A DNA stretch of 64,000 bases from Chitinophagaceae bacterium (GTDB taxonomy: Bacteria; Bacteroidota; Bacteroidia; Chitinophagales; Chitinophagaceae), in assembly GCA_019638615.1 (NCBI GenBank), contig JAHBTL010000036.1, positions 1 to 64,000 on the forward strand, read 5' to 3'. The notes beneath the pieces were generated by a model. The model was given only the letters and a program-made list of their open reading frames with translations, made no database searches and had not been told where the DNA came from. The position numbers and the translations under genes were made by a program. Below, one piece after another: positions 11,117 through 58,864 of this stretch. Numbering within the stretch: the stretch's first letter is position 1; every line of letters begins with the position of its first letter.

Positions 11117-11126
11117 TACTTTTTGT

Positions 11127-30101: not shown

Positions 30102-32423
30102 ATGAAAATCTTCACAAAAATTGCATACCTGGTATGCATACTGATTGTAGCTGTATTTGCCCTGGAGGCTTGCAAGAATAGTGACGCTTCAGCTTCTGAA
30201 GAAAAAATCCCGGACCGCATCAGTTATAACTTTGATATTCGTCCTATCCTTTCAGATAAATGTTTGGCCTGTCATGGCCCCGATGCCAATAAAAGAGAAG
30301 CGGGGCTGCGGCTGGATGTAGAAGAAAGCGCATTTGCCGCATTAAAAGAAAATCCCAAAGCGCATGCGGTCGTTGCCGGCAAACCGGAAGTATCACAGGC
30401 TTTTTTGCGCATCACCACGAAAGATTCTTCCTTGCTGATGCCTCCCCCGGCATCGAACCTGAAGTTGACCGAACGCGAGATAGCGCTGATTGAAAAGTGG
30501 ATACAGCAGGGTGCCAAATACGAAAAACACTGGGCATTCGTAGCGCCGGTCAAACCTGCACTTCCAAAGGTTACATTAAAGGATTGGCCAAGAAATGATA
30601 TTGATTATTTTATCCTGGAAAAAATGGAGCAAAAAGGCTTCCAACCCAGTGAAGAAGCAGATAAAGAAAGGCTGTTAAAAAGATTAAGCCTGGACTTAAC
30701 CGGTTTGCCTCCTACACTGGAAATGATGGATTCCTTTTTGGCAGACAACAGTGTGGACGCTTACGAAAAAATGGTAGACAAGCTGATGCAGCTTCCGTCG
30801 TATGGGGAAAAGATGTCGTTGCACTGGCTTGATCTTGCCCGTTATGCCGATTCTCACGGGTATCAGGATGATGGTTACCGTACACAATGGCCCTGGAGAG
30901 ACTGGGTGATACATGCGTTCAATAACAACATGCATTATGACGAGTTTGTAACCTGGCAGCTTGCCGGTGATCTTTTACCCGAAGCTTCCAAAGAGCAGTT
31001 GCTGGCTACAGGATTCAACAGAAATCACAAAATTACGGAAGAGGGAGGCGTGATTCCTGAAGAGTACCGCATCAGCTATGTTACCGACAGGAACGATTTA
31101 TTCGGCAAAGGTCTTTTAGGCATTACCCTGGAATGCGCACATTGCCACGACCATAAATACGATCCTTTTTCCATGAAGGAATATTACCAGCTCTTCGCAT
31201 TTTTCAACAATGTAAAAGAAGTGGGAATAGAATCGGTGATCGGCGGACCTGAAACCTATGCCAAGAAACCATTAATGGAGATCAGCAATGAAGACATCAA
31301 AACCGTGCTCAGGTTTGTGAACAAGCCGGATACAGAGCGGTTGATCGTATCCGTTATGGGCGATCTTGATACGATCAGACCAACACATATTCTACAAAGA
31401 GGTCAGTACGACGCCCCTGGCGAAGAAGTGCGGCCTGCAACGCCCGCTGCCATACTTTCGTTTGATGAATCGTATCCCAAAAACAGGCTTGGACTTTCAA
31501 AGTGGTTGTTTGATAAGCGAAACCCGCTTACAGCCAGGGTATATGTTAACATTTTGTGGCAGGAGTTTTTTGGCAGGGGCATTGTTAAAACTTCCGGGGA
31601 TTTTGGAATGCAGGGCGATCTCCCTTCCCACCCGCATCTGCTGGATTGGCTGGCGGTTGACTTCCGCGAAAACAACTGGGACATCAAACGACTGGTAAAG
31701 ATGATGGTGACCTCCGCTACTTACAGGCAGTCGGCCGTTGTAACCCCCGAAAAGCTGGCCACCGATCCTGAAAATATTTACCTCGCACGTGGGCCACGCT
31801 ATCGCATACACGCAGAATTTGTAAAAGACCTGGTACTGGCAAGCAGTGGTTTATTGAGCCCGGCCATAGGCGGACCAAGCGTTAAGCCCTATCAACCGGC
31901 AGGTTTGTGGGAAGGTGCTACTTCTGGAAGAGGGCTGCTTTCGATGTATGTGCAGGATCATGGAGAAAATCTTTATCGCAGGGGAATGTATACGCTGATC
32001 AAGCGTACGGTTCCCCCTCCTACCATGGCCATTTTTGACGCAAGCAACAGGGATATGTGTGAAGTAAAACGCCTGCGGACAAATACTCCTCTGCAGGCGC
32101 TGGTAATGATGAATGATCCGGCTGTGCTGGAAGCCTCACGTGTGCTGGCGGAAAAGCTGCAGAAGGAGCAAACAGACGTTAAAGACAAGCTTATTAAAGC
32201 ATTCCGGCTGATCGTTTCCAGGAAGCCGAAGGAAAAGGAGATGGAAGTGCTTACGAATTATTACAATGCGCAGCTGAATAAGCTGCAGCCGCCGGAAATC
32301 AATAAAACCCTGGAAATAGGTGAATATCCTCTTGGAGAACAGATAGACAGGAAGGCTGTAGCTGCCATGGCAAGGGTCATATCCACCATTTATAACCTTG
32401 AAGAAACAATAACAAAAACCTGA
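30102..32423 (+). CDS. Planctomycete-type cytochrome lipoprotein (PSCyt1-DUF1549-DUF1553)
   Basis: The ATG at 30102 gives a lipoprotein leader ending at Cys24 (FALEAC), a better start than the upstream TTG. The 773-residue protein has a PSCyt1 haem domain at about residues 45-140 (CLACH at 54-58, GPDANKREAGLRLD). A DUF1549/PSCyt2 domain follows at about 150-360 (WLDLARYADSHGYQDDGYRT, CAHCHDHKYDPF), then DUF1553/PSD1 at about 440-740 (NPLTARVYVNILWQEFFGRG, RLRTNTPLQALVMMNDP). CAHCH may be a second haem site. These proteins are abundant in Planctomycetes and also found in Bacteroidota, and their biochemical role is unproven. It is the first gene of a three-gene set. Confidence 0.93.
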   Translation: MKIFTKIAYLVCILIVAVFALEACKNSDASASEEKIPDRISYNFDIRPILSDKCLACHGPDANKREAGLRLDVEESAFAALKENPKAHAVVAGKPEVSQAFLRITTKDSSLLMPPPASNLKLTEREIALIEKWIQQGAKYEKHWAFVAPVKPALPKVTLKDWPRNDIDYFILEKMEQKGFQPSEEADKERLLKRLSLDLTGLPPTLEMMDSFLADNSVDAYEKMVDKLMQLPSYGEKMSLHWLDLARYADSHGYQDDGYRTQWPWRDWVIHAFNNNMHYDEFVTWQLAGDLLPEASKEQLLATGFNRNHKITEEGGVIPEEYRISYVTDRNDLFGKGLLGITLECAHCHDHKYDPFSMKEYYQLFAFFNNVKEVGIESVIGGPETYAKKPLMEISNEDIKTVLRFVNKPDTERLIVSVMGDLDTIRPTHILQRGQYDAPGEEVRPATPAAILSFDESYPKNRLGLSKWLFDKRNPLTARVYVNILWQEFFGRGIVKTSGDFGMQGDLPSHPHLLDWLAVDFRENNWDIKRLVKMMVTSATYRQSAVVTPEKLATDPENIYLARGPRYRIHAEFVKDLVLASSGLLSPAIGGPSVKPYQPAGLWEGATSGRGLLSMYVQDHGENLYRRGMYTLIKRTVPPPTMAIFDASNRDMCEVKRLRTNTPLQALVMMNDPAVLEASRVLAEKLQKEQTDVKDKLIKAFRLIVSRKPKEKEMEVLTNYYNAQLNKLQPPEINKTLEIGEYPLGEQIDRKAVAAMARVISTIYNLEETITKT

Positions 32424-32450
32424 TACGCTTAACATATAAATGATTGTAAG

Positions 32451-33908
32451 ATGGAAAAAGAAATTCTGGAACACGGTTTTACCTGGAACAGGCGGCGTTT
32501 TCTTTCCGCTATGAGTTTAGGCGTAGGCAGTGTTGCCCTTGGCTCATTGCTGATGCCCGACCTTTTCGGCAGGGGCAACAGTGTGGGCGATGAAGCTTTT
32601 AAGCCGGGTATCCCTCATTTTGCGCCCAGGGCAAAGCGGGTAATATACCTGTTCCAGAACGGAGCGCCCTCTCAACAGGAATTATTCGACTACAAGCCTA
32701 AGTTGCGCGAAATGACAGGACAGGAAATTCCTCCTTCCGTCCGCGGCAACCAGCGGCTTACGGGCATGACAGCCAACCAGAGCGCTTTCCCCCTGGTAGG
32801 AAGCTTTGTTGATTTTAAACAATATGGAAACTCACGGGCATGGGTAAGCGATCTTATGCCCTATACGGCCAAGATCGTGGATGAGCTTTGCATCGTTCGC
32901 TCCATGTATACCGAAGCCATCAATCACGACCCGGCTTTAACATTCCTGCAAACCGGTTCGCAACAGGGCAATCGTCCCAGCATGGGCGCCTGGCTGAGTT
33001 ACGGGCTGGGTAATGAAAACAAAAACCTTCCCAATTTCACGGTATTGCTTTCCCGCGGAATTGGCAACGGGCAGGGAGTGTATTCAAAATTATGGTCAAA
33101 CGGGTTTTTAGATTCGGTACACCAGGGTGTACAGTTCAGCAAAGGAGAAGATCCTGTATTGTATCTGCGCGACCCGGATGGCATGGACCGGAAAGCCCGT
33201 CGTGAAATGCTGGATAACCTGTCTGAGCTGAACGAAATGGCGTATAAAGAAATGGGCGATCCTGAAATTACAGCCAAGATACAGCAATATGAAATGGCTT
33301 ACCGCATGCAGATGGCAGTGCCCGAAGTAATGGACCTTTCCAAGGAGCCTGATGATATAGTGAAGCTGTATGGCCCGGACTGTTTGGTTCCCGGCACATT
33401 TGCAGCCAATTGCCTGCTTGCCCGTAAACTTTCAGAAAATGGTGTACGCTTCGTACAATTGTACCACCAGGGATGGGATCAGCATGGCAATCTTCCGTTT
33501 GAAATAGCCAAACAAGCCAAAGACGTTGACCAGGCATCTGCCGCGCTGGTGATTGATCTCAAGCAGCGCGGACTGCTGGATGAAACACTGGTAATATGGG
33601 GTGGTGAATTCGGCCGCACCAGTTACACACAAGGCAGGCTGACACAGGACAATTATGGGCGCGACCATCACCCACGTTGCTTTACCATATGGATGGCAGG
33701 CGGTGGCATTAAACCGGGTATTGTGTATGGAGAAACCGACGAATTAGGGTACAATATTATAAAAGATCCTGTACATGTGCACGATTTCCAGGCTACCGTA
33801 TTGAACCAGTTGGGATTGGATCACGAAAAACTGATTTTCAAACACCTGGGCCGGAGGTATCGACTTACCGATGTATCAGGCAAAGTAGTAAAAGATCTTA
33901 TTGCATAA
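32451..33908 (+). CDS. Tat-exported DUF1501 protein (sulfatase-like fold)
   Basis: This 485-residue protein starts with a twin-arginine signal (NRRRFLSAMSLGVGSVALGS), so it is exported folded, probably with bound metal. The DUF1501 body has RVIYLFQNGAPSQQELFDYK, VDELCIVRSMYTEAINHDPA, LVIWGGEFGRTSYTQG, DNYGRDHHPRCFTIWMAGGG and HDFQATVLNQLGLDH. DUF1501 belongs to the alkaline phosphatase/sulfatase superfamily, although the usual sulfatase cysteine motif is absent. It almost always accompanies PSCyt1/DUF1549/DUF1553 proteins, as here (27 bp downstream), so the two probably act on one substrate in the periplasm. Confidence 0.93.
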   Translation: MEKEILEHGFTWNRRRFLSAMSLGVGSVALGSLLMPDLFGRGNSVGDEAFKPGIPHFAPRAKRVIYLFQNGAPSQQELFDYKPKLREMTGQEIPPSVRGNQRLTGMTANQSAFPLVGSFVDFKQYGNSRAWVSDLMPYTAKIVDELCIVRSMYTEAINHDPALTFLQTGSQQGNRPSMGAWLSYGLGNENKNLPNFTVLLSRGIGNGQGVYSKLWSNGFLDSVHQGVQFSKGEDPVLYLRDPDGMDRKARREMLDNLSELNEMAYKEMGDPEITAKIQQYEMAYRMQMAVPEVMDLSKEPDDIVKLYGPDCLVPGTFAANCLLARKLSENGVRFVQLYHQGWDQHGNLPFEIAKQAKDVDQASAALVIDLKQRGLLDETLVIWGGEFGRTSYTQGRLTQDNYGRDHHPRCFTIWMAGGGIKPGIVYGETDELGYNIIKDPVHVHDFQATVLNQLGLDHEKLIFKHLGRRYRLTDVSGKVVKDLIA

Positions 33909-33979
33909 TAATTTCCATTTTCTGTAATTACTATTTACGCTATAGTGTAAGCGGCTCAACTTTAATTGCCCTGTTTTAA

Positions 33980-36130
33980 ATGAAGATAAAATTCAATGTT
34001 CTGGGTGCACAATTACTCCTGGTACTCAACATATTCGTTGCTTTCCTGCTGCTGTTTGAAAACAAACTGGTAGTACCCGCATGGCTCCAGCCCGCCGGAC
34101 GCATGCATCCCCTGGTACTGCACTTTCCTATTGTAATACTGGTAATGGCCATGTTCCTTGAGTTTTTCCGTAGCAGGAGCAATTCCTTTTATCTTCAGGC
34201 TTCTCATTATCTTTTACTGCTGGGCGCTTTGCTGGCAGGCATTACAGTTATTATGGGGTTGCTCCTTTCGAAAGAAGAAGGATATGCCGGCGATACGCTG
34301 TTCTGGCATAAATGGACAGGAATAGCCATATTCTTTATTTCTTCTTTCATTTATTTTATCAGGAATACGCAATGGTATTCTGCCCCCGCAGCCAAAGCAG
34401 GAGCCGTTGTTACGGTACTGGTGGTAATTATAAGCGGGCATTATGGCGCGAGCTTAACGCATGGCGAAAACTTCCTGACCGAACCTTTGGCTGTTTATTA
34501 TCAGCCCGACCCGGTGGCATTTGACCAGGCATTGGTATTTGACCACGTTGTAAAACCGATACTGGAAAAAAAATGTACAGGCTGCCACAATGCCGATAAG
34601 CTGAAGGGAGAATTGATGCTGACAGATTCTGCATCGATCGTGAAAGGCGGGAAATCCGGGAAGTTGTTTATTGCCGGCGACCCGGATATGAGTTTGCTGT
34701 TGCAACGGGTACACCTTCCCCTGGAAGATAAAAAGCATATGCCTCCTGCCGGCAAAGCGCAGCTGACAGAACCGGAAATAGCTTTACTCACGGCATGGAT
34801 AAAAACCGGTACCACATTGTTTTCTGCAAAAGTATCCGAACTGCCTGAGCACGATTCACTGCGCATGGCCGCTGCAGGCTTTTTACAACCTGCACAGCCG
34901 GCAGAAGAAAAATACGATTTTTCAGCGGCTGACGAAAAAACGATCAACGCGCTCAGTACGGATTACAGGACCATCCTTCCGCTTGCCAAAGAATCTCCTG
35001 CCCTGGCTGTAAATATTTATAACAGGGAAGAATGGTCCGGCAAACAACTAGAAGAACTGGCTCCTCTGAAAAAACAGGTGGTGGCGCTTAACCTTAACAA
35101 ATTACCTGTAAAGGATGGAGATCTGAAGAGCATTAGCCAGTTCCAGAGTTTAAGACATGTTTACCTCAACTTTACAGATATCACAGCCGCCGGACTTAAG
35201 GAGCTGAGCATATTGCCCCATTTGCAGACATTGGCTGTATCGGGCACTAAAATCAGTTACAACGACCTTAAAGCCCAGTTGCCGGCTTTAAAAAGCTTAA
35301 AATCGATAGCGATCTGGAACACACCCATTACCCCGCAGGAAGCACAGGAACTGAAAAAAGCCAACACCGGCATCACATTTATTGAAGGATTTAAAGACGA
35401 TGGCACGAATCCGCTTAAGCTCAATTTGCCCGAGGTAAAGAACAAGTCAATGGTGTTCACACAATCAACACAATTGCAGCTTAGTCATCCCATAAAGGGA
35501 GTGGATATTCGTTTTACCACCGATGGAACAGAACCAGATAGTACGACTTCCTTTTTATTCGATGGCAAAACAGAGCTAAAAGAGAATACTTACATCAAAG
35601 CAAAAGCATATAAAGAGGGATGGTATGCCAGCGATGTGGCGGAATTTTATTTCCTGAAGTGCAGCATCAAGCCAGACAGCACGCACTTGCTGTATAAGCT
35701 GAACAGCGTTCACCAGGCGGAAGGAGCCAAAAGCTATTTCGATAATAAACTGGGAGTGATTGGAGCAAATAACCCCGCCTGGGCCAACAACTGGACCGGA
35801 GTAAGACATACGGACATGGGGCTGTTGTGTTATTTTAATAACCCCGCAACCATAAGTTCCGTTGGTTTGCATTATATGCTTGAAGAAGTAACCGGTATTT
35901 ATCCCCCAGGCTCGCTGCAGGTTTGGGGAGGTGAAAGTGAAGAGCAACTCAAATTACTGGCCAGCCTGCGTCCGCCGCCGCCTCCAAAAGGTGGTAAACC
36001 CTCTTTGGAAACCGTGGAAGTATCGTTTAAACCACACAAAGTGTCCTGTCTTAAAATAGTGGCTGTGCCTCAAACCAATGAAAAAGGCGACAGGCGCCTG
36101 TTGCTGGTTGATGAAATGTACCTCAACTAA
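33980..36130 (+). CDS. DUF2231 membrane protein fused to cytochrome c, LRR-like and chitobiase-C-like domains
   Basis: This 716-residue protein begins with four to five membrane helices (about residues 10-165, DUF2231-like, with MHPLVLHFPIVILVMAMFLE). A PSCyt1-type haem domain follows (CTGCH at 199-203, HMPPAGKAQLTEPEIALLTA). Residues about 325-480 are leucine-rich-repeat-like. Residues about 490-560 resemble the chitobiase/beta-hexosaminidase C-terminal domain (DIRFTTDGTEPDSTTSFLFD). The last 150 residues look like a discoidin-type sandwich (LHYMLEEVTGIYPPGSLQVW). It follows the DUF1501 gene by 71 bp. It could pass electrons from the other two proteins into the inner membrane. Confidence 0.88.
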   Translation: MKIKFNVLGAQLLLVLNIFVAFLLLFENKLVVPAWLQPAGRMHPLVLHFPIVILVMAMFLEFFRSRSNSFYLQASHYLLLLGALLAGITVIMGLLLSKEEGYAGDTLFWHKWTGIAIFFISSFIYFIRNTQWYSAPAAKAGAVVTVLVVIISGHYGASLTHGENFLTEPLAVYYQPDPVAFDQALVFDHVVKPILEKKCTGCHNADKLKGELMLTDSASIVKGGKSGKLFIAGDPDMSLLLQRVHLPLEDKKHMPPAGKAQLTEPEIALLTAWIKTGTTLFSAKVSELPEHDSLRMAAAGFLQPAQPAEEKYDFSAADEKTINALSTDYRTILPLAKESPALAVNIYNREEWSGKQLEELAPLKKQVVALNLNKLPVKDGDLKSISQFQSLRHVYLNFTDITAAGLKELSILPHLQTLAVSGTKISYNDLKAQLPALKSLKSIAIWNTPITPQEAQELKKANTGITFIEGFKDDGTNPLKLNLPEVKNKSMVFTQSTQLQLSHPIKGVDIRFTTDGTEPDSTTSFLFDGKTELKENTYIKAKAYKEGWYASDVAEFYFLKCSIKPDSTHLLYKLNSVHQAEGAKSYFDNKLGVIGANNPAWANNWTGVRHTDMGLLCYFNNPATISSVGLHYMLEEVTGIYPPGSLQVWGGESEEQLKLLASLRPPPPPKGGKPSLETVEVSFKPHKVSCLKIVAVPQTNEKGDRRLLLVDEMYLN

Positions 36131-36183
36131 GATCCGGGAAAAATGGCGGTTTCCTGAGCTATACATTCCCCCGCCTTGCGGGC

Positions 36184-36462
36184 CTATAAAGTTATTTTTA
36201 TTAATCCCAGGAAGTCAAGCACCAGTATTCCGCAAAAGCAGAGGATAAACAACACAAGGGTAAATTCAACTCCCTTTTTATATGTCCGGCGAAGCGTTGA
36301 TCTTAAAAGCAGGTTGGCTGTTACCTGCATTAACAACCCCAGGATGAATACGGATGCGCCCAGGAATAAAAATTCTGCAAATGTAAACACGGCAATGCAA
36401 ACGCCTGAACACATCAGCAATATACCAGACAACTTAAGCGGCGAATTAAAAAACTGGACCAT
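36184..36462 (-). CDS. Small membrane protein, three predicted helices
   Basis: This 92-residue frame has three hydrophobic stretches (about residues 10-29, 30-50 and 68-90), with charged LLLRSTLRRTYKKG between helices 2 and 3. The opposite-strand frame over the same DNA has no protein-like character, which favours this one. I recognise no family. It lies convergent to the DUF2231 fusion gene, 53 bp from its stop. Confidence 0.5.
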   Translation of the reverse strand: MVQFFNSPLKLSGILLMCSGVCIAVFTFAEFLFLGASVFILGLLMQVTANLLLRSTLRRTYKKGVEFTLVLFILCFCGILVLDFLGLIKITL

Positions 36463-36679
36463 AGGAATGAACGGATGCGATTATTTAAACAACAATGTTG
36501 AACGCTAAAATATTAAACCTATAGAACAGATTTATCATTACAAAGGATTCATTTACAGAATATTACCCTTTGTTAACTTAACTGAATGATAAAATGAGAT
36601 CAATAGATTTTTGTCATTTTATCCGGTAAATGCACCCGGGTTGATTTATACCATCTGCAAACCGTAACTTAGCGACCAC

Positions 36680-37519
36680 ATGAAAAAAGAAGCAACCATC
36701 AAAAAAAGTTTTTTACTCTTAACTGCCATACTATGTATCTGCACGGCCACCGCTCAAAAGTCCGGGCATTATAAAACAAAGTGGAAAAAAGTCCGCGCAT
36801 TGGTATATACCAAAAACGGTAAGGGCTATGTGCATGAAAACATTGCCGCTGCATCCAACGCTATTTTGCAGATGGGCAATCAATATGGTTTTGCCGTAGA
36901 TACATCATCAGACCCACGTGTTTTTACAGAAGAAAATCTGAAAAAATACAGCCTCGTTATTTTCAACAATACGAATAACGAGGTTTTTGATACAGACCGG
37001 CAAAAGGTTGAATTTATGCGCTATATACAGGCGGGTGGCGGCTTTGTCGGGCTTCATTCCGCAACCGGAACCGAACGGCAATGGCCCTGGTATAAAAGAC
37101 TGATTGGCGCTTCCTTCCTTCGTCATGCGAATCATCAGCGCTTTAAGGAAATCATTATTGACGCGGATCATCCTTCTACCTCCTTCCTGCCTGCAATATG
37201 GGAGAGAAATGATGAATGTTACTTCTTTAAAGAATACAATCCTGATATTCGCGTACTGGTAGTGCACGACCTGGCGCCGCTGGCTGACGGGGATAAGCCT
37301 GCATATTATGGCGGAACCTCTTCGCCTTCGGTATGGTGTCATGAGTTTGATGGTGGCAGGCAATGGTATACTTCGCTGGGGCACGACGCGGCGACCTATG
37401 ATACACAGGAATTCCGCAAGCATATTTTAGGAGGGATCATTTGGGTAATCGGTCCGCAAAAGGCATTGGATTATTCAAAAGCAAGAGCTCAGCGTCCCGA
37501 TGACCCCCTGCCCTATTGA
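36680..37519 (+). CDS. Secreted ThuA-family protein
   Basis: This 279-residue protein has a signal peptide (about residues 8-26, ending ATAQ). The ThuA glutamine-amidotransferase-like fold shows RALVYTKNGKGYVHENIAAA, LVIFNNTNNEVFD, YIQAGGGFVGLHSATGTE and VWCHEFDGGRQWYTSLGHD. ThuA proteins are tied to use of trehalose and other disaccharides by way of 3-keto intermediates. It starts an apparent operon with two Gfo/Idh/MocA oxidoreductases and mannonate dehydratase, with gaps of 61, 35 and 27 bp. The signal peptide places this step in the periplasm. Confidence 0.92.
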   Translation: MKKEATIKKSFLLLTAILCICTATAQKSGHYKTKWKKVRALVYTKNGKGYVHENIAAASNAILQMGNQYGFAVDTSSDPRVFTEENLKKYSLVIFNNTNNEVFDTDRQKVEFMRYIQAGGGFVGLHSATGTERQWPWYKRLIGASFLRHANHQRFKEIIIDADHPSTSFLPAIWERNDECYFFKEYNPDIRVLVVHDLAPLADGDKPAYYGGTSSPSVWCHEFDGGRQWYTSLGHDAATYDTQEFRKHILGGIIWVIGPQKALDYSKARAQRPDDPLPY

Positions 37520-37580
37520 TCGATTGCATAAACGATATTTATAAAATCAAATTGATTCATCAAGCGCTAAATACCAGGCG

Positions 37581-39008
37581 ATGGCAAAAAATAAAGTTAC
37601 ATCTACACGCAGAAGCTTTATCAGCAATACCATTAAAGGCACAGCAGGCGTTGCCATATTAACCGGTGCGCCAACCATTGTTCCTGCAACGGTTTTTGGA
37701 AAATATGCCCCCAGCAACCGCATTAATGTAGGCGCCATCGGCGCAGGCAGGATAGCCAGGGACTGGGACATACCCGGCGTAATGAAACAGGAAGCCGCCA
37801 GGGTGTTAGCCGTGTGTGATCTTGACAGGAACAGGCTGCAACTGGGGAAAAAAATGATTGATGATTTTTACATTAACAAGGGACAGTCCGGCTATAACAG
37901 CACCAAAACCTTTGAACATTATGAAGCATTGATTGCCGATAAAGACATCGACGCAGTCATTATAGCCACACCCGATCACTGGCATGTATTGCCCGCCATC
38001 CTGGCTGTACGTTCAGGCAAACACGTATATATGGAAAAGCCTGCTTCCCTGTGTATAAGCGAGGGAAGAAGGTTAAGCGATGAAGTACACGCTTCCGGCA
38101 AAATACTGCAGGTAGGAAGCCAGCAACGCTCCATGCCCCAGTTTAAAAAAGCCTGCGAGTTGGTGCGCAACGGCCGCATCGGGAAACTGCATACCATTTA
38201 TGTAGGGCTCCCGATTGATAAGCCCGAAGAAAGTACTGTAGAAAAAGAAATGCCGGTCCCCGCCAACCTCAACTTTGAAAAATGGCTGGGTGCAACGCCT
38301 TATGTGCCATACACCGAAAAATTAGTACATCCTCAAAAGGATTTTTCACGCCCCGGCTGGCTGCGCTGCGAGCAATTCGGCGCCGGCATGATCACAGGTT
38401 GGGGATCGCATCATTTTGATATAGCCAATTGGGGAATGGGAACGGAAAAAACCGGCCCTGTTGAAATTTCGGGAACCGCAGATTGGCCTGCCAAAGAAGC
38501 GCTGTGGGATGTGCACGGCAACTTCAAAACAGAAACTGTGTTTGCCAACGGCGTGAAAGTACTGGCAAGCAACGAATATCCCAACGGTGTAAAATTCGTT
38601 GGTTCCGACGGATGGATATTTGTGACCAGGGGCAACTATACCGTAACAGCAAGCGATCCTGTAAAAAAAGCCGACAATAACAAAGCGCTTGAAGCAAGCA
38701 ATCCTAAAATACTGGATTCCGTAACAGGCGAAAATGAAATTCATCTTATCGACAGCAAAGATCATCATGCCAACTGGATCAACAGCATACTTACGGGGCA
38801 GGAAAATATTGCCCCGATAGAAGCCGGTCACAGGGCATGCTCGGTATGCCTGCTGAACAATATCGCCATGAAGCTTAAAAGAAAGCTGTATTGGGATCCG
38901 GTATTGGAGCGATTTAAAAACGACGACGAAGCCAATTTCATGCTTCGCCGCTCCGAACGATGGCCCTACCAGATAGATAAAGGATTTAACATTAAGACCA
39001 CGGTGTAG
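37581..39008 (+). CDS. Tat-exported Gfo/Idh/MocA-family oxidoreductase
   Basis: This 475-residue protein begins with a twin-arginine signal (TRRSFISNTIKGTAGVAIL), so the NAD(P)-dependent enzyme is exported with its cofactor. The Rossmann domain has VGAIGAGRIARDW at about residue 53, VIIATPDHWHVLPAI and the family signature YMEKPASL (EKP lysine). The C-terminal alpha/beta domain has GMITGWGSHHFDIANWGMG. Family members oxidise sugar hydroxyls, often at C3. It lies directly between ThuA and a second family member, suggesting sequential oxidation/epimerisation of a sugar in the periplasm. Confidence 0.93.
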   Translation: MAKNKVTSTRRSFISNTIKGTAGVAILTGAPTIVPATVFGKYAPSNRINVGAIGAGRIARDWDIPGVMKQEAARVLAVCDLDRNRLQLGKKMIDDFYINKGQSGYNSTKTFEHYEALIADKDIDAVIIATPDHWHVLPAILAVRSGKHVYMEKPASLCISEGRRLSDEVHASGKILQVGSQQRSMPQFKKACELVRNGRIGKLHTIYVGLPIDKPEESTVEKEMPVPANLNFEKWLGATPYVPYTEKLVHPQKDFSRPGWLRCEQFGAGMITGWGSHHFDIANWGMGTEKTGPVEISGTADWPAKEALWDVHGNFKTETVFANGVKVLASNEYPNGVKFVGSDGWIFVTRGNYTVTASDPVKKADNNKALEASNPKILDSVTGENEIHLIDSKDHHANWINSILTGQENIAPIEAGHRACSVCLLNNIAMKLKRKLYWDPVLERFKNDDEANFMLRRSERWPYQIDKGFNIKTTV

Positions 39009-39043
39009 AATTTGAAATTCGAGATTTGAAATTTGAAATTAAT

Positions 39044-40435: not shown

Positions 40436-40462
40436 CATACTTTACAACACAATATTTTCAGG

Positions 40463-41635: not shown

Positions 41636-41842
41636 AAACAAGTGGTAATACTTATAAGCAACTCATCCCGATCCGCTTAAAGAGAAAAAATAACCAGTTA
41701 AGGGATTGACATCATCAATTGTATTTATTAAATTTATGACAACAAATTTTTAAACCGCGCACTTACAGCGCTTAAAAATGTAACCCGTAGCATACTCCTG
41801 CCTAAATAACCAGGGGATGGGTTAGTGTCAATCAACTTCAAG

Positions 41843-42008: not shown

Positions 42009-42100
42009 CAACTCGGCATTAGAAGCTTCTTAAGGAAAATGTAAAATAGTGATCCTATAAAATGAAATACCTAATTTGCCCCATATTTTCATGAAATGAT

Positions 42101-43702
42101 ATGAACTATACTGCTCAATGGATTACATACGAGCGTACCGGGGCTTTTTCACAATTGGTTACCGACTATGTTCAACAAAATGCGTCTTTACAGCCTTTTT
42201 TTTCTCATACTCCTGATATAAACGGGATAAAAGCCGCGTTACAAAACCGTAAATCGTTTGCCACCAATCGTTTATTGCTTACTGCGGTGCTTCAAAGGCA
42301 ATACGAAGGACTACAGCCCCCTCAACAGGTGAAAGACAATATCCGGAAATTATCTTCCGAAACCACATTTACTGTTTGCACAGCCCACCAACCTAATATT
42401 TTCACCGGGTATTTGTATTTTATCTATAAAATTTTACATACCGTAAAACTGGCGGAGGAGCTAAAACAATCTTTACCCGGTTATGATTTTGTTCCTGTAT
42501 ACTACATGGGCAGCGAGGACAATGACCTGGAGGAGCTCAACCATATTTACCTGGGTGGCGACAACCTGGTGTGGCAAACCGGCCAAACCGGGGCAGTAGG
42601 ACGGATGAAGCCCGAAGGCATGAATACGCTGATAGAGAAAATCAGCGGACAGCTAAGTATTTTTGAGTTTGGCGCTGAATTGATCGATTTGCTTACAACC
42701 TGCTATACCAAAAGCAATTCCATACAGGAGGCCACCCTGAAATTTGTAAATGCATTGTTTGGCGAATATGGTCTTGTCATCCTGATACCTGACCATGCCG
42801 GTCTCAAAAAGGAAATGATCCCGGTTTTTGAAGATGATATTTTCAATCATACGGCCTTTTCTGTGGTAACGCAAACCGCCGCTGCATTGTCCGGTCAGTA
42901 CCACGCGCAGGTAAATCCCAGGGAGATCAACCTTTTTTATATGAAGGACGGGATAAGAGAACGGATCATAAAAGACGGCAATGCGTACATGGTAAATAAC
43001 ACCGGCATTTCTTTTTCAGCCGATACGCTTAAAGAAGAATTACACCAGTATCCGGAAAGATTCAGTCCCAATGTTGTATTGCGCGGGTTGTACCAGGAGA
43101 CTTTATTACCTAATCTTGCATTTATAGGGGGCGGCTCTGAATTAGCGTACTGGATGGAGCTGAAAAAAATGTTTGAGCATTACGGTGTACCCTACCCTGT
43201 TTTGCTGCTGCGCAATTCTTTTTTAATAATAAACGAAAAGGAAGCCCGGCTCCGGCAAAAACTGGACATTGCTGCAGAGGATCTTTTTAAAGACGAAGCA
43301 ATTATATTGAACGGGATTGTAAAAGCAAAAAGCGACCACCAGCTCTCTTTGCTGGATGAAAAGCAGCAGCTTGATCAATTGTATGGAACAATAGAAACCA
43401 TTGCAGGCATAGTAGACATTACCCTGAAAAACCATGTAAAAGCGTTACAAACAAAAGCTGCAAAAGCATTGGACAACCTGGAGAAGAAAATCGTAAAAGC
43501 GGAAAAAAGAAAGTTTGAAATCCAGCGGGATCAGCTCCATACACTAAAAACCTCGCTTTTCCCCAAAGGGAACCTGCAGGAAAGAGTTGAAAACATACTT
43601 CCGTACTATGCCCAAAAAGGAAAGGGGTTTATAAAAATGATTTACAAAAACTCACCGCCTTGCGGAGGTAAATTTGGAATTTTGACAGAACAATACGATT
43701 AA
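42101..43702 (+). CDS. bshC: Bacillithiol biosynthesis cysteine-adding enzyme BshC
   Basis: This 533-residue protein is a full-length BshC, the putative ligase adding cysteine to glucosaminyl-malate in the last step of bacillithiol synthesis. Signatures are VCTAHQPNIFTGYLYFIYK starting at residue 92, VPVYYMGSEDNDLEELNHIY, PNVVLRGLYQETLLPNLAFI and GGGSELAYW. A coiled coil follows (about 430-490, rich in Lys/Glu). Bacillithiol is the main low-molecular-weight thiol of many Bacteroidota. bshA and bshB are not nearby, which is usual. It is followed 42 bp later by a hydroxyacyl-CoA dehydrogenase gene. Confidence 0.97.
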   Translation: MNYTAQWITYERTGAFSQLVTDYVQQNASLQPFFSHTPDINGIKAALQNRKSFATNRLLLTAVLQRQYEGLQPPQQVKDNIRKLSSETTFTVCTAHQPNIFTGYLYFIYKILHTVKLAEELKQSLPGYDFVPVYYMGSEDNDLEELNHIYLGGDNLVWQTGQTGAVGRMKPEGMNTLIEKISGQLSIFEFGAELIDLLTTCYTKSNSIQEATLKFVNALFGEYGLVILIPDHAGLKKEMIPVFEDDIFNHTAFSVVTQTAAALSGQYHAQVNPREINLFYMKDGIRERIIKDGNAYMVNNTGISFSADTLKEELHQYPERFSPNVVLRGLYQETLLPNLAFIGGGSELAYWMELKKMFEHYGVPYPVLLLRNSFLIINEKEARLRQKLDIAAEDLFKDEAIILNGIVKAKSDHQLSLLDEKQQLDQLYGTIETIAGIVDITLKNHVKALQTKAAKALDNLEKKIVKAEKRKFEIQRDQLHTLKTSLFPKGNLQERVENILPYYAQKGKGFIKMIYKNSPPCGGKFGILTEQYD

Positions 43703-43744
43703 CTTGTTATAACAATCCGCTTTATAATCACAGCATTCAACTCC

Positions 43745-44740
43745 ATGAATAAAAAACTAAAACCCTCAGAAATTAAAACAGGCGTTGTGGGACTGGGGCT
43801 CATGGGCTGCAGCATCGTTACCTGCTTTTTAATGGCGGGTCACCCGGTTGTGGCAGTAGCAGGCATTCCCGCAGACCTGTTGCATGCCCTCAAACGCATC
43901 ACTGCGCATCTTAAGCGATCTCAAAAGGAAAAGCTGGTCAGGCATCCCCCCTCCCATTACCTCCGCAACCTTATTATTACTGAAGACTATACAGCATTAA
44001 AAGGCTGTAAGCTGGTGGTAGAATGCACACTCGAAAATATAGACATTAAAAAGCAGGTATACCGGAAAATTGAATCGGTGATAGCCAGGAATGCTTTGAT
44101 GACAAGCAATACCTCCGCTATCCCAATCAGTTTGTTGCAGGAGCAAACCCTACACCCCGAACGGTTTTTAGGGCTTCATTGGGCTGAGCCCTCGCATACT
44201 ACCCGCTTCCTGGAAATAATATGCGGCAACAAAACAAACATTAAGAACGGCGAGTTCTTATACGCGCTATCGCATTCATGGGGTAAAGAGCCTACCCTGG
44301 TACGCAAAGATATCAGGGGCTTTATTACCAACCGGATAATGTATGCCATGTATCGCGAAGCGATATATCTTGTTGAAAATGGATATGCCACGGTGGAAGA
44401 CGTTGACCGCGCCTGTCGCAACAATGCCGGTTACTGGATGACACTGATGGGCGTCTTCCGCTGGATGGATCTTACAGGCGTACCCGCCTATCATACGGTA
44501 ATGAAAGATCTTTTTCCTACGTTAAACAACAGTACCGCTGTGCCGGCTTTGATCGACGATATAGTAAAAAAAGGAGGCAAAGGTGTATCCAATGCGCATG
44601 GATTTCATTCCTATACTCCGGAGGAAGCAAAATTGTGGGAAGAGACTTTTACTGCTTTTAGCTATGAGATCAGGAAGCTGGCGCTGAAATACCCCGAAGA
44701 TGTTGTAAAAAGGAAATTAAAGACCAAACGAAAAAAGTAG
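43745..44740 (+). CDS. 3-hydroxyacyl-CoA dehydrogenase-family protein
   Basis: This 331-residue protein has an N-terminal NAD-binding domain (VVGLGLMGCSIVTCFLMAGH at about residue 14, VVECTLENIDIKKQ, TSNTSAIPI) and a C-terminal helical domain (RGFITNRIMYAMYREAIYLV, GVFRWMDLTGVPAYHTVMKD). The catalytic region reads LHWAEPSHTTRFLEI where fatty-acid enzymes have HFFNP, so the substrate may not be a typical acyl-CoA. Sugar- or hydroxy-acid dehydrogenases of this superfamily are plausible given the neighbourhood. The M19 dipeptidase gene begins 3 bp after its stop. Confidence 0.88.
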   Translation: MNKKLKPSEIKTGVVGLGLMGCSIVTCFLMAGHPVVAVAGIPADLLHALKRITAHLKRSQKEKLVRHPPSHYLRNLIITEDYTALKGCKLVVECTLENIDIKKQVYRKIESVIARNALMTSNTSAIPISLLQEQTLHPERFLGLHWAEPSHTTRFLEIICGNKTNIKNGEFLYALSHSWGKEPTLVRKDIRGFITNRIMYAMYREAIYLVENGYATVEDVDRACRNNAGYWMTLMGVFRWMDLTGVPAYHTVMKDLFPTLNNSTAVPALIDDIVKKGGKGVSNAHGFHSYTPEEAKLWEETFTAFSYEIRKLALKYPEDVVKRKLKTKRKK

Positions 44741-44743
44741 CAT

Positions 44744-45820
44744 ATGCTGATTATAGACGCGCACCTCGACCTGAGCATGAATGCGCTGGAATGGAACCGT
44801 GATCTGAAACGAACGGTAACGGATATACGAAAACGGGAAAAAGGACTAACGGATAAGCCCGACCGCGCAAAGGGAATGGTATCGCTGCCTGAGCTCAGGA
44901 AAGGTAAAATTGGATTGGTTGTAGCCACTATGATAGCAAGATATGTAGCTCCGGACAGCACGCTCCCGGGCTGGCATTCTCCCGAGCAGGCATGGGCTCA
45001 AACCCAGGGGCAACGTTCGTGGTATGCGGCGATGGAGGACATAGGTGAAATGATACAGATCACCAATAAGCAACAGCTTCATCATCATATACAGTTGTGG
45101 AACAACGATAGCATACCCGATACACAGAAGCCTGTAGGTTATATCCTCAGTCTTGAAGGAGCGGACTCGCTGGTCAACCTGTCTTATCTTGAAAAATCAT
45201 ATCAATACGGGTTACGGGCATTAGGCCCGGCCCACTACGGCCCCGGAAGGTATGCGCCGGGTACAGGTCTGCAGGGACCCTTAACCGCCGAGGGCATAAC
45301 ATTGATCAGGGCAATGGATGAGCTGAAAATGATCCTGGACGTAACCCACTTAACCGATGAAGGTTTTAAGCAGGTGGTGAATTTGTATAAAGGTCCCGTG
45401 TGGGCCAGCCATCACAATTGCAGGGCGCTGGTAGATTACCAGCGGCAGCTGACCGATGAACAAATTAACATACTGATTGAACGGGGAGCCGTAATAGGCG
45501 GTGTGCTGGATGCATGGATGCTGAAACCTGGCTGGATACGCGGTAAAAATGATCCGGTAAAAGACAATATTACACTGGAGCTGCTGATAGATCATTATGA
45601 TCATATCTGCCAGATTGCAGGCAACTCCGATCACATTGCCATTGGGAGCGACCTGGATGGGATGTTTGGCAAAGAACAGGCGCCTTACGACATGGATACA
45701 ATAGCCGACCTGCAGATGCTGCAACAGCTATTAGCCAAACGGGGATATACGCAGGAAGATACCAGGAAAATATTCCATGGCAACTGGCTCAACTTCCTGG
45801 AAAGAGCATGGAAATCTTAG
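44744..45820 (+). CDS. Peptidase M19 (renal dipeptidase-type) hydrolase
   Basis: This 358-residue protein has no signal peptide. The M19 metal-site motifs are in order: IIDAHLDLS (His-x-Asp), LSLEGADSL (bridging Glu), DVTHLTDEG, WASHHNCRAL and IAIGSDLDG. It has the normal family length. M19 enzymes hydrolyse dipeptides, often with D-residues, or beta-lactam-like bonds. The gene is tightly linked to the 43745 gene (3 bp). Its 3' end overlaps the open frame of the next gene, but the proper start of that gene lies after its stop. Confidence 0.93.
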   Translation: MLIIDAHLDLSMNALEWNRDLKRTVTDIRKREKGLTDKPDRAKGMVSLPELRKGKIGLVVATMIARYVAPDSTLPGWHSPEQAWAQTQGQRSWYAAMEDIGEMIQITNKQQLHHHIQLWNNDSIPDTQKPVGYILSLEGADSLVNLSYLEKSYQYGLRALGPAHYGPGRYAPGTGLQGPLTAEGITLIRAMDELKMILDVTHLTDEGFKQVVNLYKGPVWASHHNCRALVDYQRQLTDEQINILIERGAVIGGVLDAWMLKPGWIRGKNDPVKDNITLELLIDHYDHICQIAGNSDHIAIGSDLDGMFGKEQAPYDMDTIADLQMLQQLLAKRGYTQEDTRKIFHGNWLNFLERAWKS

Positions 45821-45884
45821 CCTGCCCGTTCAATCGTTTAACTATTCGTACATTCATCACAAATCTCAAAAACAGCTTGCCCGC

Positions 45885-48800
45885 ATGAAGTTTTTATATC
45901 CCCTTTTCCTGGTTGTATTGATTGGTTTCAATGCATGTAATACTGCCGGTAACAAAGCTGCTCCCGGCTCCGTAAAAAATTTAAAACTGGTTCAGGACGA
46001 AAAAGAAGGAACCATTTCCGTATACAGCTACCGCTCAGGCGATCCTGTGCTTGTTCAGCATGCCCGACCCGATTTCCGGCCTTTCATTCATCCCATCATA
46101 GCGCCCGATGGCAAAGGGGTATTGACTGAAAACAGCCCGGGTCATCACAAACACCAGAACGGCTTATATTGGGGATTTACCCGGGTAAATGGCAGGGATT
46201 ATTTCCATCATCCCGCAGATGGATACTGGAAACGCGTTGCTGCCAATATACTGGAAGCGGAAGGCGAGCAGGTAAAATGGCAGACCGTTTACAACCTGCT
46301 GGATTCAACAGGCACGCCGGTGATGACCCAAACACAAACCTGGAGCATGACGCAGGATAGCGGCCGGTATTTTATCACATTGGAATGGAAAGGCGAAGCC
46401 CAAACAGATATTACCATTGGCAAATATGATTACGGTGGGTTGTTTTTGCGCATGCCGTGGAAAGAAGGAATAAACGGGGAAGTAGTAAACGCGGCACGTC
46501 AGAAAAATGAAAAAGCGGAGGGGCAGCGGGCCATGTGGGTAGATGTAGGCATGCAGGTAGAAGACCGGAACGATCTTGCCCATATTGCCCTGTTCGATCA
46601 TCCCGAAAACAGGGGCTACCCCCAGCATTGGAGAGTAGACGGACAAATGGGTGTGGGCCCGGCTACGGCGCGCGATACAAGCTGGACAATTAAAAAAGGC
46701 GATACGGAAACATTCAAACACCGGTTAATGGTATATACCGGAGCGCTCGATGATAAGGAAGTAACGGGCCAGTGGGCTTTGTATACCGGGAAAACTTCTC
46801 TATACAACACCACGGAATTGTGGGCTATGGCGCAACAGGAAGCGCTGGAAGCAAAATTCCTGAATCCCGAAGAAGCAGTAGCGGCGATGACGCTTAAGGA
46901 TGGCAACAAAGCCAACGTATGGGCGGCAGAACCCATGATGACCCAGCCCATGGCTTTTTGCTGGGACGACCGGGGACGGCTATGGGTAGCCGAAAATAAA
47001 GACTACGAGTCCCGCGGCGCCGGCTTTTCAAATGCGGGCGACAGCCGCATCGTAATACTGGAAGATACAAACCACGATGGCAAAGCGGATAAACGCAAAG
47101 TATTTATGGAAGGCATTGCCTTCCCGGCGGCGCTGGCAGTAGGCTTTGACGGTGTGTTTGTAGGCGCCCCGCCTAATTTATTATTTGTGCCCGATCGCAA
47201 CCACGATGATGTAGCAGACGTGAAGGATATTGAAGTAAGGTTAACGGGATGGGGTATACGCGACCGCCACGAAACGCTGAACAGCTTTCATTGGGGGCCC
47301 GATGGGTGGCTGTATGGCTGCCAGGGATTTGCCACTCCTTCTAAAGTAAGAAAGCCAAAAGGAAAAGGTAAGTTGTACAAACATAAAGACCCCTTTCCTG
47401 AAAATATTCTCGAAGGCGACGGGGTAGATATCAACGGGGGCGTTTGGCGCTATCATCCGTTAAAAGACAAATTTGAAGTGGTGGCACACGGCTTCAGCAA
47501 TCCCTGGGGTATTGACTACGATGCGAAAGGACAGCTTTTTATCAGCGCCTGCGTGATACCGCACATGTGGCATGTAATACCGGGAGGGATTTATCACCGG
47601 CAGGGCGGCCAGCATTTTAACCCCTATGTATACGACGATATCAAAACCATTGCCAATCACAGTCACCGTTCTGCGCATGGGGGTGCCCGTATATACCAGT
47701 CGGATGCATTTCCCGCTGCTCAGAAAGGCAGGATCTTTATGTGCAATATCCATGAGCATGCGGTATTGTCGGATATTTTACAAAAAGAGGGATCTGGCTT
47801 TGTTGCGCAGCATGGCGATGATTTTATGCTGGCCAACAACGGGCAATGGGTAGGCTTCAGCATGGAAATAGGACCTGACGGTGGCATATATGCACTTGAC
47901 TGGCATGACGCGGATATATGCGGACAAACAGTACGCAACAGCGAAACAGGACGTATTTTCAGGATCATGCCTGCCCGGTCAGAAGCTGTAAATTTCCCGG
48001 GACGCTATGAAGACCTCAATAAGCTGTCCGATCAACAATTGGCCGGACTGCAAACCAGCAGCAGCGACTGGCATGCACGCAGGGCGAGGATAATATTGCA
48101 GGGACGTGCCGTTAAAAACAAACTGGATCCCGGCGCATATACGGTACTGTCAGACCTCTTCCGTTCTTCCTCCAACAGCGATCACCGGCTGAAAGCGATG
48201 TGGACATTGTATGTAACCCAAAGTCTTTCAAAAGAGCTGCTTGTTGCATCGCTTTCCGATAAGGATGAATACATCAGGGCATGGGCCATCCAGCTTTTGT
48301 GTGAAGATGCCTCGCCCGCGGGCGATGTAACCGCTGCATTCATAACGATGGCGCAGAAGGACCCCTCTCCTGTTGTACGGCTCTATCTTGCTTCTGCCAT
48401 ACAACGCGTTGATGAAGCCACAGGCTGGCAGCTCGCAGCGGCATTAAGTCAGCATGGAGAAGACGAGGCGGATCACAATCTGCCCAAAATGATCTGGTTC
48501 GGGTTTGAGAAGCTGGTAAAAAATGATCCTCAGAAAGCATTGGCGATAGCGGCTTCATCCAAGCTATCGTTGATCACCCGTTTTACCGCACGCAGGGCCA
48601 TTGACGGAGGAGCCATCAAAGAATTGGCAGATGCCATTGGTACACAACCTGCCCCGCTCAACGAGCTTTTGCAGGGAATGCTGGCCGGTATGGAGGGACG
48701 TGTTGATTTGAAACCGCCTGCCAACTGGAACAATGTGCTGGCCGCTTTAAAAAAGAGGAATGACAAAACATCGCAGATGGCGGAAGACATTACTGCCCTG

Positions 48801-49694
48801 TTTGGCGATGCCGCTTCCGCCCAGCGCTCCCTTGCCATAGCAGCAGATAAAAAAGCACCTGCCGACCAGCGGATCAAAGCGTTGCAGGCGTTGTCGGCAC
48901 AGCAACGCAAAGAGCTTGCACTGCTGTTACCCCAGTTGCTGGAAGAGCCTTCGTTGCGCCTGGAAGCGATCAAATCGATCGCGGCTTTCAACAACCGCGA
49001 CCTGGGGGTCTTGCTGCTGAAAAAATACCCGGCATTGAATGATACGGAAAAATTACAGGCTATGAATACCCTGAGCTCCCGGCCGGTATATGGCTGGTTG
49101 CTTGCCGAAGCGATCAAAAACAAAACAATGCTTAAAAACCAGGTACCCGCTACGGTGGCCCGGCAACTGCGCAGGGTGGTAGGCAGCGGCTTCGTGGAAA
49201 TTTGGGGGCCGATAGACGATCAGCCTGCCGACAGCAAAGAATTTGCCCGTTACAAAAGCCTGGTAACCGGCAAAAACGCTTCATCGCCCGATCTTGCAAA
49301 CGGGGAAAAGCTTTTCGCCAGGACCTGTGGCGCCTGTCATAAATTACTGGGCAATGGTGGTAATATCGGCCCCGATCTGACCGGCTCCAACCGTTCTGAT
49401 ATTGATTATTTATTGTTCAATATTTTAAGTCCCAGCGAGGAAATACAGGACGCCTATAAAATGGTGGTGGTAACTACGCGGGACGGCAGAACCTACTCTG
49501 GCAATGTGGTATCTGAAAACGAGCGGCAGATCACATTGCGGGTAGTGGGTCAAAACGATGTGGTGCTTAATAAATCATCCATTCAGTCGCGTGAAACCAC
49601 TTCCACTTCCATGATGCCGCAGGGGCTGCTCGGCACGCTAACCGATAAAGAAGTAACAGACCTGTTGTTCTACCTGATGAAGGCTGGGAAATAG
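45885..49694 (+). CDS. Large fusion lipoprotein: DUF6807, sorbosone-dehydrogenase-like propeller, HEAT repeats, cytochrome c
   Basis: The frame is open from 45777, but that part overlaps the M19 gene. The ATG at 45885 starts a lipoprotein leader (MKFLYPLFLVVLIGFNAC, Cys18) and a 1269-residue protein. A DUF6807/PmoA-like domain covers about 40-310 (ENSPGHHKHQNGLYWGF). A PVC-type membrane-bound dehydrogenase propeller covers about 340-720 (MAFCWDDRGRLWVAENKDYE, HRSAHGGARIYQ). HEAT-like helices follow at about 730-1110, then a C-terminal haem domain with CGACH at 1148-1152 (LLGNGGNIGPDLTGSNRSD). It could oxidise a sugar lactone or alcohol and pass electrons to its own haem. The role is inferred. 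Confidence 0.92.
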   Translation: MKFLYPLFLVVLIGFNACNTAGNKAAPGSVKNLKLVQDEKEGTISVYSYRSGDPVLVQHARPDFRPFIHPIIAPDGKGVLTENSPGHHKHQNGLYWGFTRVNGRDYFHHPADGYWKRVAANILEAEGEQVKWQTVYNLLDSTGTPVMTQTQTWSMTQDSGRYFITLEWKGEAQTDITIGKYDYGGLFLRMPWKEGINGEVVNAARQKNEKAEGQRAMWVDVGMQVEDRNDLAHIALFDHPENRGYPQHWRVDGQMGVGPATARDTSWTIKKGDTETFKHRLMVYTGALDDKEVTGQWALYTGKTSLYNTTELWAMAQQEALEAKFLNPEEAVAAMTLKDGNKANVWAAEPMMTQPMAFCWDDRGRLWVAENKDYESRGAGFSNAGDSRIVILEDTNHDGKADKRKVFMEGIAFPAALAVGFDGVFVGAPPNLLFVPDRNHDDVADVKDIEVRLTGWGIRDRHETLNSFHWGPDGWLYGCQGFATPSKVRKPKGKGKLYKHKDPFPENILEGDGVDINGGVWRYHPLKDKFEVVAHGFSNPWGIDYDAKGQLFISACVIPHMWHVIPGGIYHRQGGQHFNPYVYDDIKTIANHSHRSAHGGARIYQSDAFPAAQKGRIFMCNIHEHAVLSDILQKEGSGFVAQHGDDFMLANNGQWVGFSMEIGPDGGIYALDWHDADICGQTVRNSETGRIFRIMPARSEAVNFPGRYEDLNKLSDQQLAGLQTSSSDWHARRARIILQGRAVKNKLDPGAYTVLSDLFRSSSNSDHRLKAMWTLYVTQSLSKELLVASLSDKDEYIRAWAIQLLCEDASPAGDVTAAFITMAQKDPSPVVRLYLASAIQRVDEATGWQLAAALSQHGEDEADHNLPKMIWFGFEKLVKNDPQKALAIAASSKLSLITRFTARRAIDGGAIKELADAIGTQPAPLNELLQGMLAGMEGRVDLKPPANWNNVLAALKKRNDKTSQMAEDITALFGDAASAQRSLAIAADKKAPADQRIKALQALSAQQRKELALLLPQLLEEPSLRLEAIKSIAAFNNRDLGVLLLKKYPALNDTEKLQAMNTLSSRPVYGWLLAEAIKNKTMLKNQVPATVARQLRRVVGSGFVEIWGPIDDQPADSKEFARYKSLVTGKNASSPDLANGEKLFARTCGACHKLLGNGGNIGPDLTGSNRSDIDYLLFNILSPSEEIQDAYKMVVVTTRDGRTYSGNVVSENERQITLRVVGQNDVVLNKSSIQSRETTSTSMMPQGLLGTLTDKEVTDLLFYLMKAGK

Positions 49695-58787: not shown

Positions 58788-58864
58788 ACCTGTATTTGCT
58801 GTTTACAGTTCACCTTTAAAAGTGTTGTATATTGCCCGTCCTAAAACAAACAAACAAGCAAATA

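Follow-up and report, generated by a model that had tools for sequence, protein, structure and literature searches.

A haem-protein region of a Chitinophagaceae genome as a probable juxtaposition of three independently conserved gene modules

The window analysed here is a stretch of 64,000 nucleotides from a Chitinophagaceae bacterium (assembly GCA_019638615.1, contig JAHBTL010000036.1, positions 1 to 64,000 of the forward strand), and the region in question (30102..49694) brings together proteins with c-type haem motifs and ThuA, Gfo/Idh/MocA (Gfo), Oxidoreduct_C (OxC) and mannonate dehydratase (UxuA) proteins. A sequence-only reading had taken these genes for one envelope sugar-oxidation system that feeds 2-keto-3-deoxygluconate (KDG). 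The named genes are present, but the region very probably consists of three modules, A, B and C (Table 1), each conserved on its own. We put at about 80% the probability that it is a species-specific juxtaposition of these modules, with a separate role proposed for each. Family membership, motifs and modular gene order were established directly, and neither A-B nor B-C adjacency occurs in the relatives examined.

The division into modules follows from gene order in relatives, which splits the genes into three sets. The window is part of contig C30 of a draft assembly (7.18 Mb in 87 contigs, contamination 3.79), and 58 relatives were searched with single proteins from each part of the region; many of the adjacency counts below rest on draft contigs. 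Orthologues of A3, the last gene of module A, occur in eight of 11 genus mates (57-89% identity), in the order PSD1-DUF1501-A3 and with differing downstream genes. In seven of these eight, module B is on another contig, and in one (G010) it is 87 kb away. All nine genus mates with a full-length C orthologue carry it on a contig other than that of B. The sister species G002 has window positions 26763-36131 on contig C7, 36743-45812 on C34 and module C on C45, the outer limits of these alignments (26763 and 45812) being those of the fetched stretches. Furthermore, genes for BshC, a 3-hydroxyacyl-CoA dehydrogenase and an M19 peptidase, which the sequence-only reading did not mention, separate UxuA from the third haem protein. 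One operon is ruled out by these intervening genes together with the synteny breaks at 36131-36743 and about 45820.

One explanation for the contact between A and B is an assembly misjoin, with no real rearrangement. At the junction (36131..36679), blastn similarity to G002 C7 stops at 36131 and that to C34 starts at 36743; the interval 36131-36743 matches none of the loci compared (36100-36760, no match at E 1e-3), and the number of contigs and the contamination value of this draft would allow such an error. However, comparison of these loci revealed no repeat at the junction, and the 412-bp repeat that is common in this genome sits at 49.9 kb, downstream of C; we consider a misjoin very unlikely.

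Module A was surveyed in the best 80 of at least 469 relatives of A3 in named genomes, a sample that under-represents divergent cassettes and other phyla. PSD1 and DUF1501 genes lie upstream of A3 on the same strand in 73 of these 80 Bacteroidota loci, the other seven being at contig edges, and the genera with the cassette are Dyadobacter, Spirosoma, Mucilaginibacter, Pedobacter and Chitinophaga. The PSD1-DUF1501 spacing has a median of 5 bases (81 pairs; the genes abut or overlap in locus L098), and an NHL-type propeller gene joins the cassette in 27 of the 73 loci. By its gene content, A is a strictly conserved three-gene haem cassette of Bacteroidota, multi-copy (six copies in this genome, a fused one counted), and DUF1501 belongs with the haem set, a point absent from the sequence-only reading. 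ThuA, OxC and UxuA were each found in none of the 80 loci, and Gfo in three; as a control, the same searches in module-B loci found ThuA 12, OxC 18, UxuA 6 and Gfo 18. DUF1080, placed by the sequence-only reading among the partners of the haem proteins, occurs in five A loci by iterated profile (three by single-sequence search), against about 4.5 expected in 1.52 Mb from 258 PF06439 matches in about 86.5 Mb (15 genomes), and this background density rules it out as a special partner of A. Upstream of A it also stands in G002, and the A loci of the remaining seven genus mates carry no such label.

Module B is conserved apart from A. The ThuA, Gfo and OxC genes are adjacent in 10 of 12 genus genomes, and the contig stops beside Gfo in the other two. 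Five of the 12 (this one included) have UxuA no more than 8 kb from OxC, one has it about 50 kb away and three on another contig; the remaining three have no match at E 1e-30. The operon of relatives contains LacI (divergent), DUF6807, ThuA, Gfo, OxC, a short-chain dehydrogenase/reductase (SDR), SusC, SusD, UxuA and BshC, with some members missing per species, and the Pfam identities of its extra genes come from one scanned representative each. B is a trimmed version of this LacI-DUF6807-ThuA-Gfo-OxC-SDR-SusCD-UxuA operon, as LacI, DUF6807, SDR and SusCD are absent beside the copy in the window (LacI and SusD were sought only there). A relative's DUF6807 protein had no match in the whole genome at E 1e-10, in a search that did not pick up the DUF6807 domain of C either; for SusC, the genome-wide best match has 37% identity (150 of 168 candidates scored). 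B does not classify as a polysaccharide-utilisation locus, no SusC/SusD pair being found beside it in the window, and the pair is present in B of several relatives. The SDR gene at about 54 kb is possibly the displaced counterpart of the operon SDR. The cross-genome comparison that had been proposed as a check of the single system thus finds the cassette and the ThuA/Gfo/OxC operon each conserved but apart, which at the level of gene neighbourhood speaks largely against it.

Table 1. Modules and genes of the region (positions in the window)
Feature	Position	Strand	Content and basis
Module A	30102-36130	+	PSCyt1-PSCyt2-PSD1 lipoprotein, DUF1501 protein of twin-arginine translocation (Tat) type, DUF2231-cytochrome c membrane protein
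A1	30102..32423	+	Lipoprotein, PSCyt1-PSCyt2(DUF1549)-PSD1(DUF1553), two haem c sites; Pfam, motifs
A2	32451..33908	+	DUF1501 protein, twin-arginine motif; PF07394 505 bits
A3	33980..36130	+	DUF2231 membrane domain, PSCyt1 haem c, leucine-rich-repeat-like, Fn3_assoc/CHB_HEX_C_1, CBM32/discoidin-like beta domain
Module B	36680-41635	+	ThuA, Gfo/Idh/MocA, Oxidoreduct_C lipoprotein, UxuA
B1	36680..37519	+	ThuA, N-terminal leader (by eye); PF06283 219 bits
B2	37581..39008	+	Gfo/Idh/MocA oxidoreductase, twin-arginine motif (by eye); Pfam
B3	39026..40435	+	Oxidoreduct_C protein, lipobox (by eye); PF16490 400 bits
B4	40463..41635	+	UxuA mannonate dehydratase; TIGR00695 482.9 bits, above the equivalog cut-off of 199.55
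BshC, 3-hydroxyacyl-CoA dehydrogenase, M19 peptidase	42101..45820	+	Unrelated families; neighbours of B in sister species G002, C34; Pfam
Module C	45885-49694	+	DUF6807-DUF7133(TIGR02604)-HEAT-cytochrome c
C protein	45885..49694	+	Lipoprotein (by eye), DUF6807, DUF7133/TIGR02604 propeller, HEAT, TIGR02603 haem c; Pfam, NCBIfam
SDR	53863..54603	+	55-69% identical to SDR inside module B of relatives
DUF1080 (3keto-disac_hyd)	27851..28561	-	One of 30 PF06439 matches in genome

The three CxxCH proteins named by the sequence-only reading are encoded by open reading frames 30087-32423, 33980-36130 and 45777-49694, and because the first bears two sites the region has four haem c sites. The motif is strongly enriched in the window (8 in the 37 open reading frames of at least 150 aa, against 0.027 expected from composition shuffles). 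The four genes of module B and the upstream DUF1080 gene were likewise recovered by Pfam and NCBIfam profile scans. The claim of export agrees with visible features, namely the leader of ThuA, the Tat motifs of Gfo and DUF1501 and the lipoboxes of the others, all read by eye.

By its domains, A1 is a cytochrome of the PSCyt/PSD1 planctomycete type, with PSCyt1 (55.1 bits, cut-off 22), PSCyt2 (283.4, cut-off 29.8) and PSD1 (328.3, cut-off 28.5) accompanied by CxxCH. Its haem sites, C59xxCH63 and C350xxCH354 (numbered from a TTG at 30087; the likely start is the ATG at 30102), are kept in all 41 sequences aligned. In the fold comparison of A1, the matches listed include no clear relative outside the cytochrome domain. 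The A2 residues R14, R15, D343, H345, E386, D405, H406 and H407 are invariant in 25 of 25 sequences, and this DUF1501 protein is likely of a metal-dependent kind. Five His of the DUF2231 domain of A3 are invariant in 39 of 39 sequences (20 of 20 with more distant paralogues included), and all five point towards the periplasmic face when the helix order is read with PSCyt1 set in the periplasm. The C-terminal domain of A3 resembles a carbohydrate-binding module (CBM) of family 32, discoidin-type, in a fold comparison that covers mainly residues 491-716 and hardly probes DUF2231. The same genome also encodes a natural fusion of 810 aa, DUF2231-PSCyt1-PSCyt2-PSD1 (contig C7, L035:9519-11951), followed downstream by DUF1501 and then by a 1492-aa PKD-repeat protein with a type IX secretion signal domain. 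This fusion ties two cassette proteins together and, with DUF1501 next to it, argues that A1 and A3 act in one complex.

Every substrate, electron direction and quinone coupling proposed here is one that we infer from these sequences. A would oxidise, or reductively process, a periplasmic substrate that is probably carbohydrate-linked, and its electrons would pass via the haems to the DUF2231 domain and on to the quinone pool; the haem-protein set may burn sugars outside the cell. That A is a quinone-linked periplasmic oxidoreductase is its likeliest role and has, on this evidence, about even odds. Its action on carbohydrate, suggested by the CBM32-like domain, by SusC matches in 12 of the 80 A loci and by GH92, GH97, GH9 (glycoside hydrolase), GlcNAc-2-epimerase-like or GSDH-like genes in the A loci examined, would be somewhat less probable. 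A bolder and rather unlikely version sees in A a new class of quinone-linked periplasmic glycan/glycoside oxidase complex, in which DUF1501 and the two-haem PSD1 protein would oxidise carbohydrate held by the CBM-like tail of A3, and the five periplasmic-side His of DUF2231 would bind haem b or a metal and hand electrons to menaquinone. If this were true, planctomycete cytochromes, first described in 2004, would gain a role and a genetically tractable host; in any case, cultured Bacteroidota with A would make the function of PSCyt/PSD genes testable.

Alternatively, A could be a detoxifying or reductive system for peroxide, an oxyanion or a metal, and not a sugar oxidase. Its multi-haem, multi-copy design would suit such a task, no dehydrogenase cofactor domain is among its Pfam matches, and among solved folds its PSCyt1 domain comes closest to hydrazine synthase and to FoxE, which is a putative iron oxidase. 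However, these two matches reflect a generic cytochrome c domain, and the CBM-like domain and the SusCD and glycoside hydrolase neighbours favour carbohydrate, so that we regard detoxification as unlikely, though far from negligible.

A 209-bp element just before module A (29572-29780), whose ends look inverted by eye, may be regulatory or similar to a miniature inverted-repeat transposable element. A copy with 99.5% identity precedes a PSD1 paralogue (L033), a partial one stands at the start of such a gene in G002 (L048), and further copies are in L181 (83%) and L076.

For module B, the route would begin with outer-membrane uptake via SusCD in relatives, followed by exported oxidation by the Gfo protein together with ThuA and the OxC lipoprotein, and would end with a cytoplasmic SDR and UxuA, which would form KDG; B would thus be a LacI-type glycoside/uronate operon, trimmed. 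UxuA aligns with the mannonate dehydratase PDB 4eac over query residues 6-388 (E 3.7e-128), and the mannonate-to-KDG step of B is sound. As UxuA truly belongs to the mannonate dehydratase family, B can fairly be read as ending in KDG, and probably does. The nearest solved dehydrogenases of B2 are PDB 8tdf (E 3e-20) and 8tdh, its best NCBIfam model is the glycoside 3-dehydrogenase family BT_2158_fam at 116.9 bits (equivalog cut-off 750, so that it is not a member), and B3 matches PDB 4oo3, a 'hypothetical protein', at E 3.6e-144. With a BT2158-like Gfo below the family cut-off, ThuA, and SusCD and DUF6807 in relatives, B looks in its gene content like a glycoside-oxidation operon. UxaC is located elsewhere in the genome (C3:147314).

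The open reading frame of module C opens at 45777, with a likely start at ATG 45885. TIGR02604 (318.5 bits, cut-off 122.2) and TIGR02603 (122.3, cut-off 68.15) are above cut-off, with HEAT between them (HEAT_2 26.2, just below the Pfam 27.7), and by these domains C is a haem protein of the Planctomycetes-Verrucomicrobia-Chlamydiae (PVC) type. Full-length orthologues occur in nine genus mates, a count from 11 candidates scored per genus genome that may be too low (G008 has no listed match and G001 just a partial match), and none of the 23 family genomes outside the genus has a match at E 1e-100. Propeller relatives with 79-83% identity, in frames of 1276-1313 aa, are found in two Dyadobacter, one Algoriphagus and one Cytophagaceae genome. 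The kilobases at 46-49 kb have a GC content of 0.50-0.53, and the remaining ones between 26 and 51 kb lie at 0.38-0.49. This high GC, the identity of about 80% with propellers of Cytophagales and the lack of a family match outside the genus together suggest horizontal transfer of C. Downstream of C lies an intergenic repeat of 412 bp (49863-50275), with copies at 1812-2223 and, diverged, at 61394-61812; further copies, on several other contigs, share 96-98% identity with it. Of 20 stretches of 20 kb sampled from the genome, 10 match it at least in part, and it has no Rfam match.

C appears to be a separate DUF6807/propeller/haem c fusion, probably sugar-acting, an activity that we hold slightly more probable than its absence. 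One relative has been studied: according to PMC5342196, the TIGR02604-HEAT-cytochrome protein Lac161_ORF7 was reported to release glucose from lactose (Km 1.8 mM), a PF14100 (DUF6807) gene lies nearby, maybe in the same operon, and the cosmid complemented S. meliloti, not E. coli. A sugar role can be kept for B and is plausible though unproved for C, for which this is the single lactose-acting relative published; it may or may not extend to A. The third haem protein was rejected as a neighbour of A in other genomes, since none of 16 propellers near A is orthologous to C (at most 33% identical). Ten of these lack CxxCH, one of them cut by the end of the stretch, and the one scanned, in L088, scores for GSDH; a Dyadobacter relative scores equally for DUF7133 (40.6 bits) and GSDH (40.5 bits).

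Several observations weigh against the reading as three separate modules with the roles proposed. Over 35 family genomes, genus included, A and B (p = 0.0004), A and C (p = 0.00004) and B and C (p = 0.0005) are associated, genus mates not being independent and the associations of C resting on genus genomes, since no genome of that set beyond the genus gave a match to C; the sets were read by hand at thresholds of our own, A being counted from about 480 bits upwards over its full length. As the three modules tend to occur together within the genus, they may be functionally linked in trans. From draft contigs one can read that genes are not adjacent, but not how far apart they are, and DUF6807 is found both in B of relatives and in C. 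GSDH/TIGR02604-type propellers occur in the same 16 of the 80 A loci, six of them with CxxCH, against a rough expectation of 2 (from 96 matches in about 70.8 Mb, 12 genomes; the A-locus search was more sensitive, and Dyadobacter dominates the hits), and an A-propeller link is possible. In Spirosoma loci L096 and L097, SusCD, two PSD1-DUF1501 pairs, a DUF2231 gene, SusCD, a haem propeller and DUF1080 follow one another on a single strand, the natural arrangement that comes closest to the sequence-only idea. As to the roles, we take DUF1501 to be alkaline-phosphatase-like, and a phmmer search with A2 gave no significant solved relative. After BT0459, the best match of the last domain of A3 is the DDR1 discoidin domain, so that sugar binding is no more than possible. 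E. coli BL21(DE3)pLysS carries lacZ. Because Lac161_ORF7 was produced in this host (PMC5342196), contamination with host beta-galactosidase is possible and haem loading doubtful.

The co-occurrence of the modules across the genus, the shared DUF6807 and the order in Spirosoma would suit one envelope sugar-oxidation pathway with usually scattered genes, in which DUF1080, Gfo and ThuA carry out 3-keto-sugar chemistry that the haem proteins of A and C re-oxidise or extend, on the way to KDG. However, A and B are non-adjacent in the eight genus mates with an A orthologue, ThuA, OxC and UxuA are missing beside A in the 80 loci, DUF1080 is at background there, and the 23 family genomes outside the genus show no significant A-B association (both 3, A only 2, B only 4, neither 14; one-sided Fisher p = 0.14). 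Moreover, Gfo enzymes use NAD(P), not haem. With 30 PF06439 matches and 24 stretches matching the module-C propeller in this genome, either one near A is little surprise. We judge a single pathway improbable and retain the juxtaposition of three modules.

Other parts of the window hold further genes. A double cytochrome c (13286-14251) and a MauG/cytochrome c peroxidase (18452-19399), with two CxxCH motifs each, stand apart from the three modules. A 1193-aa FG-GAP/ASPIC-UnbV protein (3946-7527) adjoins a TonB-receptor/SusD pair (7961-12965). Genes of the DHDPS family, for an aldehyde dehydrogenase and of the proline racemase family follow in a row at 57882-61384, a set that resembles one for hydroxyproline breakdown. 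Rfam and tRNA scans of the window gave no match.

The literature search, which covered few subscription papers, found no paper that describes the A cassette with DUF2231 and none that links DUF1501 with DUF1553; for ThuA, mannonate dehydratase and Bacteroidetes, nothing relevant stood among the titles listed. PSCyt/PSD genes have been described in Verrucomicrobia and Planctomycetes, where, in PMC5615132, their functions are stated as wholly unknown, carbohydrate use is suggested, and the genes are very numerous in some Verrucomicrobia genomes. There, planctomycete-type PSCyt2 genes are mostly beside another unknown family, with CBMs in some.

The PSCyt1/PSCyt2/PSD1 planctomycete families have the same domains and haem motifs as A (PMC5615132). 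Unlike them, A is a fixed three-gene cassette of Bacteroidota with a DUF2231 membrane haem c partner and a natural fusion of haem genes. C shares the TIGR02604-HEAT-TIGR02603 architecture with Lac161_ORF7, which has its PF14100 gene nearby, whereas in C DUF6807 is fused; the lactose evidence (PMC5342196) belongs to Lac161_ORF7 alone. With the BT2157-BT2158 3-keto-glycoside pathway and Caulobacter LacABC/DUF1080, an exported Gfo/Idh/MocA dehydrogenase and DUF1080 are common themes (PMC9007349 and PMC11300592). In contrast to the BT2156-2160 type, the Gfo of B is far below the BT_2158 cut-off (117 of 750 bits), and 20 module-B stretches (L051-L070) contain no DUF1080 at E 1e-3 in a single-sequence search of moderate sensitivity, which in the A loci recovered three of the five genes found by profile. 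From the UxuA hexuronate branch to KDG, finally, UxuA is clear and UxaC is encoded elsewhere, whereas the proximity of UxuA to OxC is limited to five of the 12 genus genomes.

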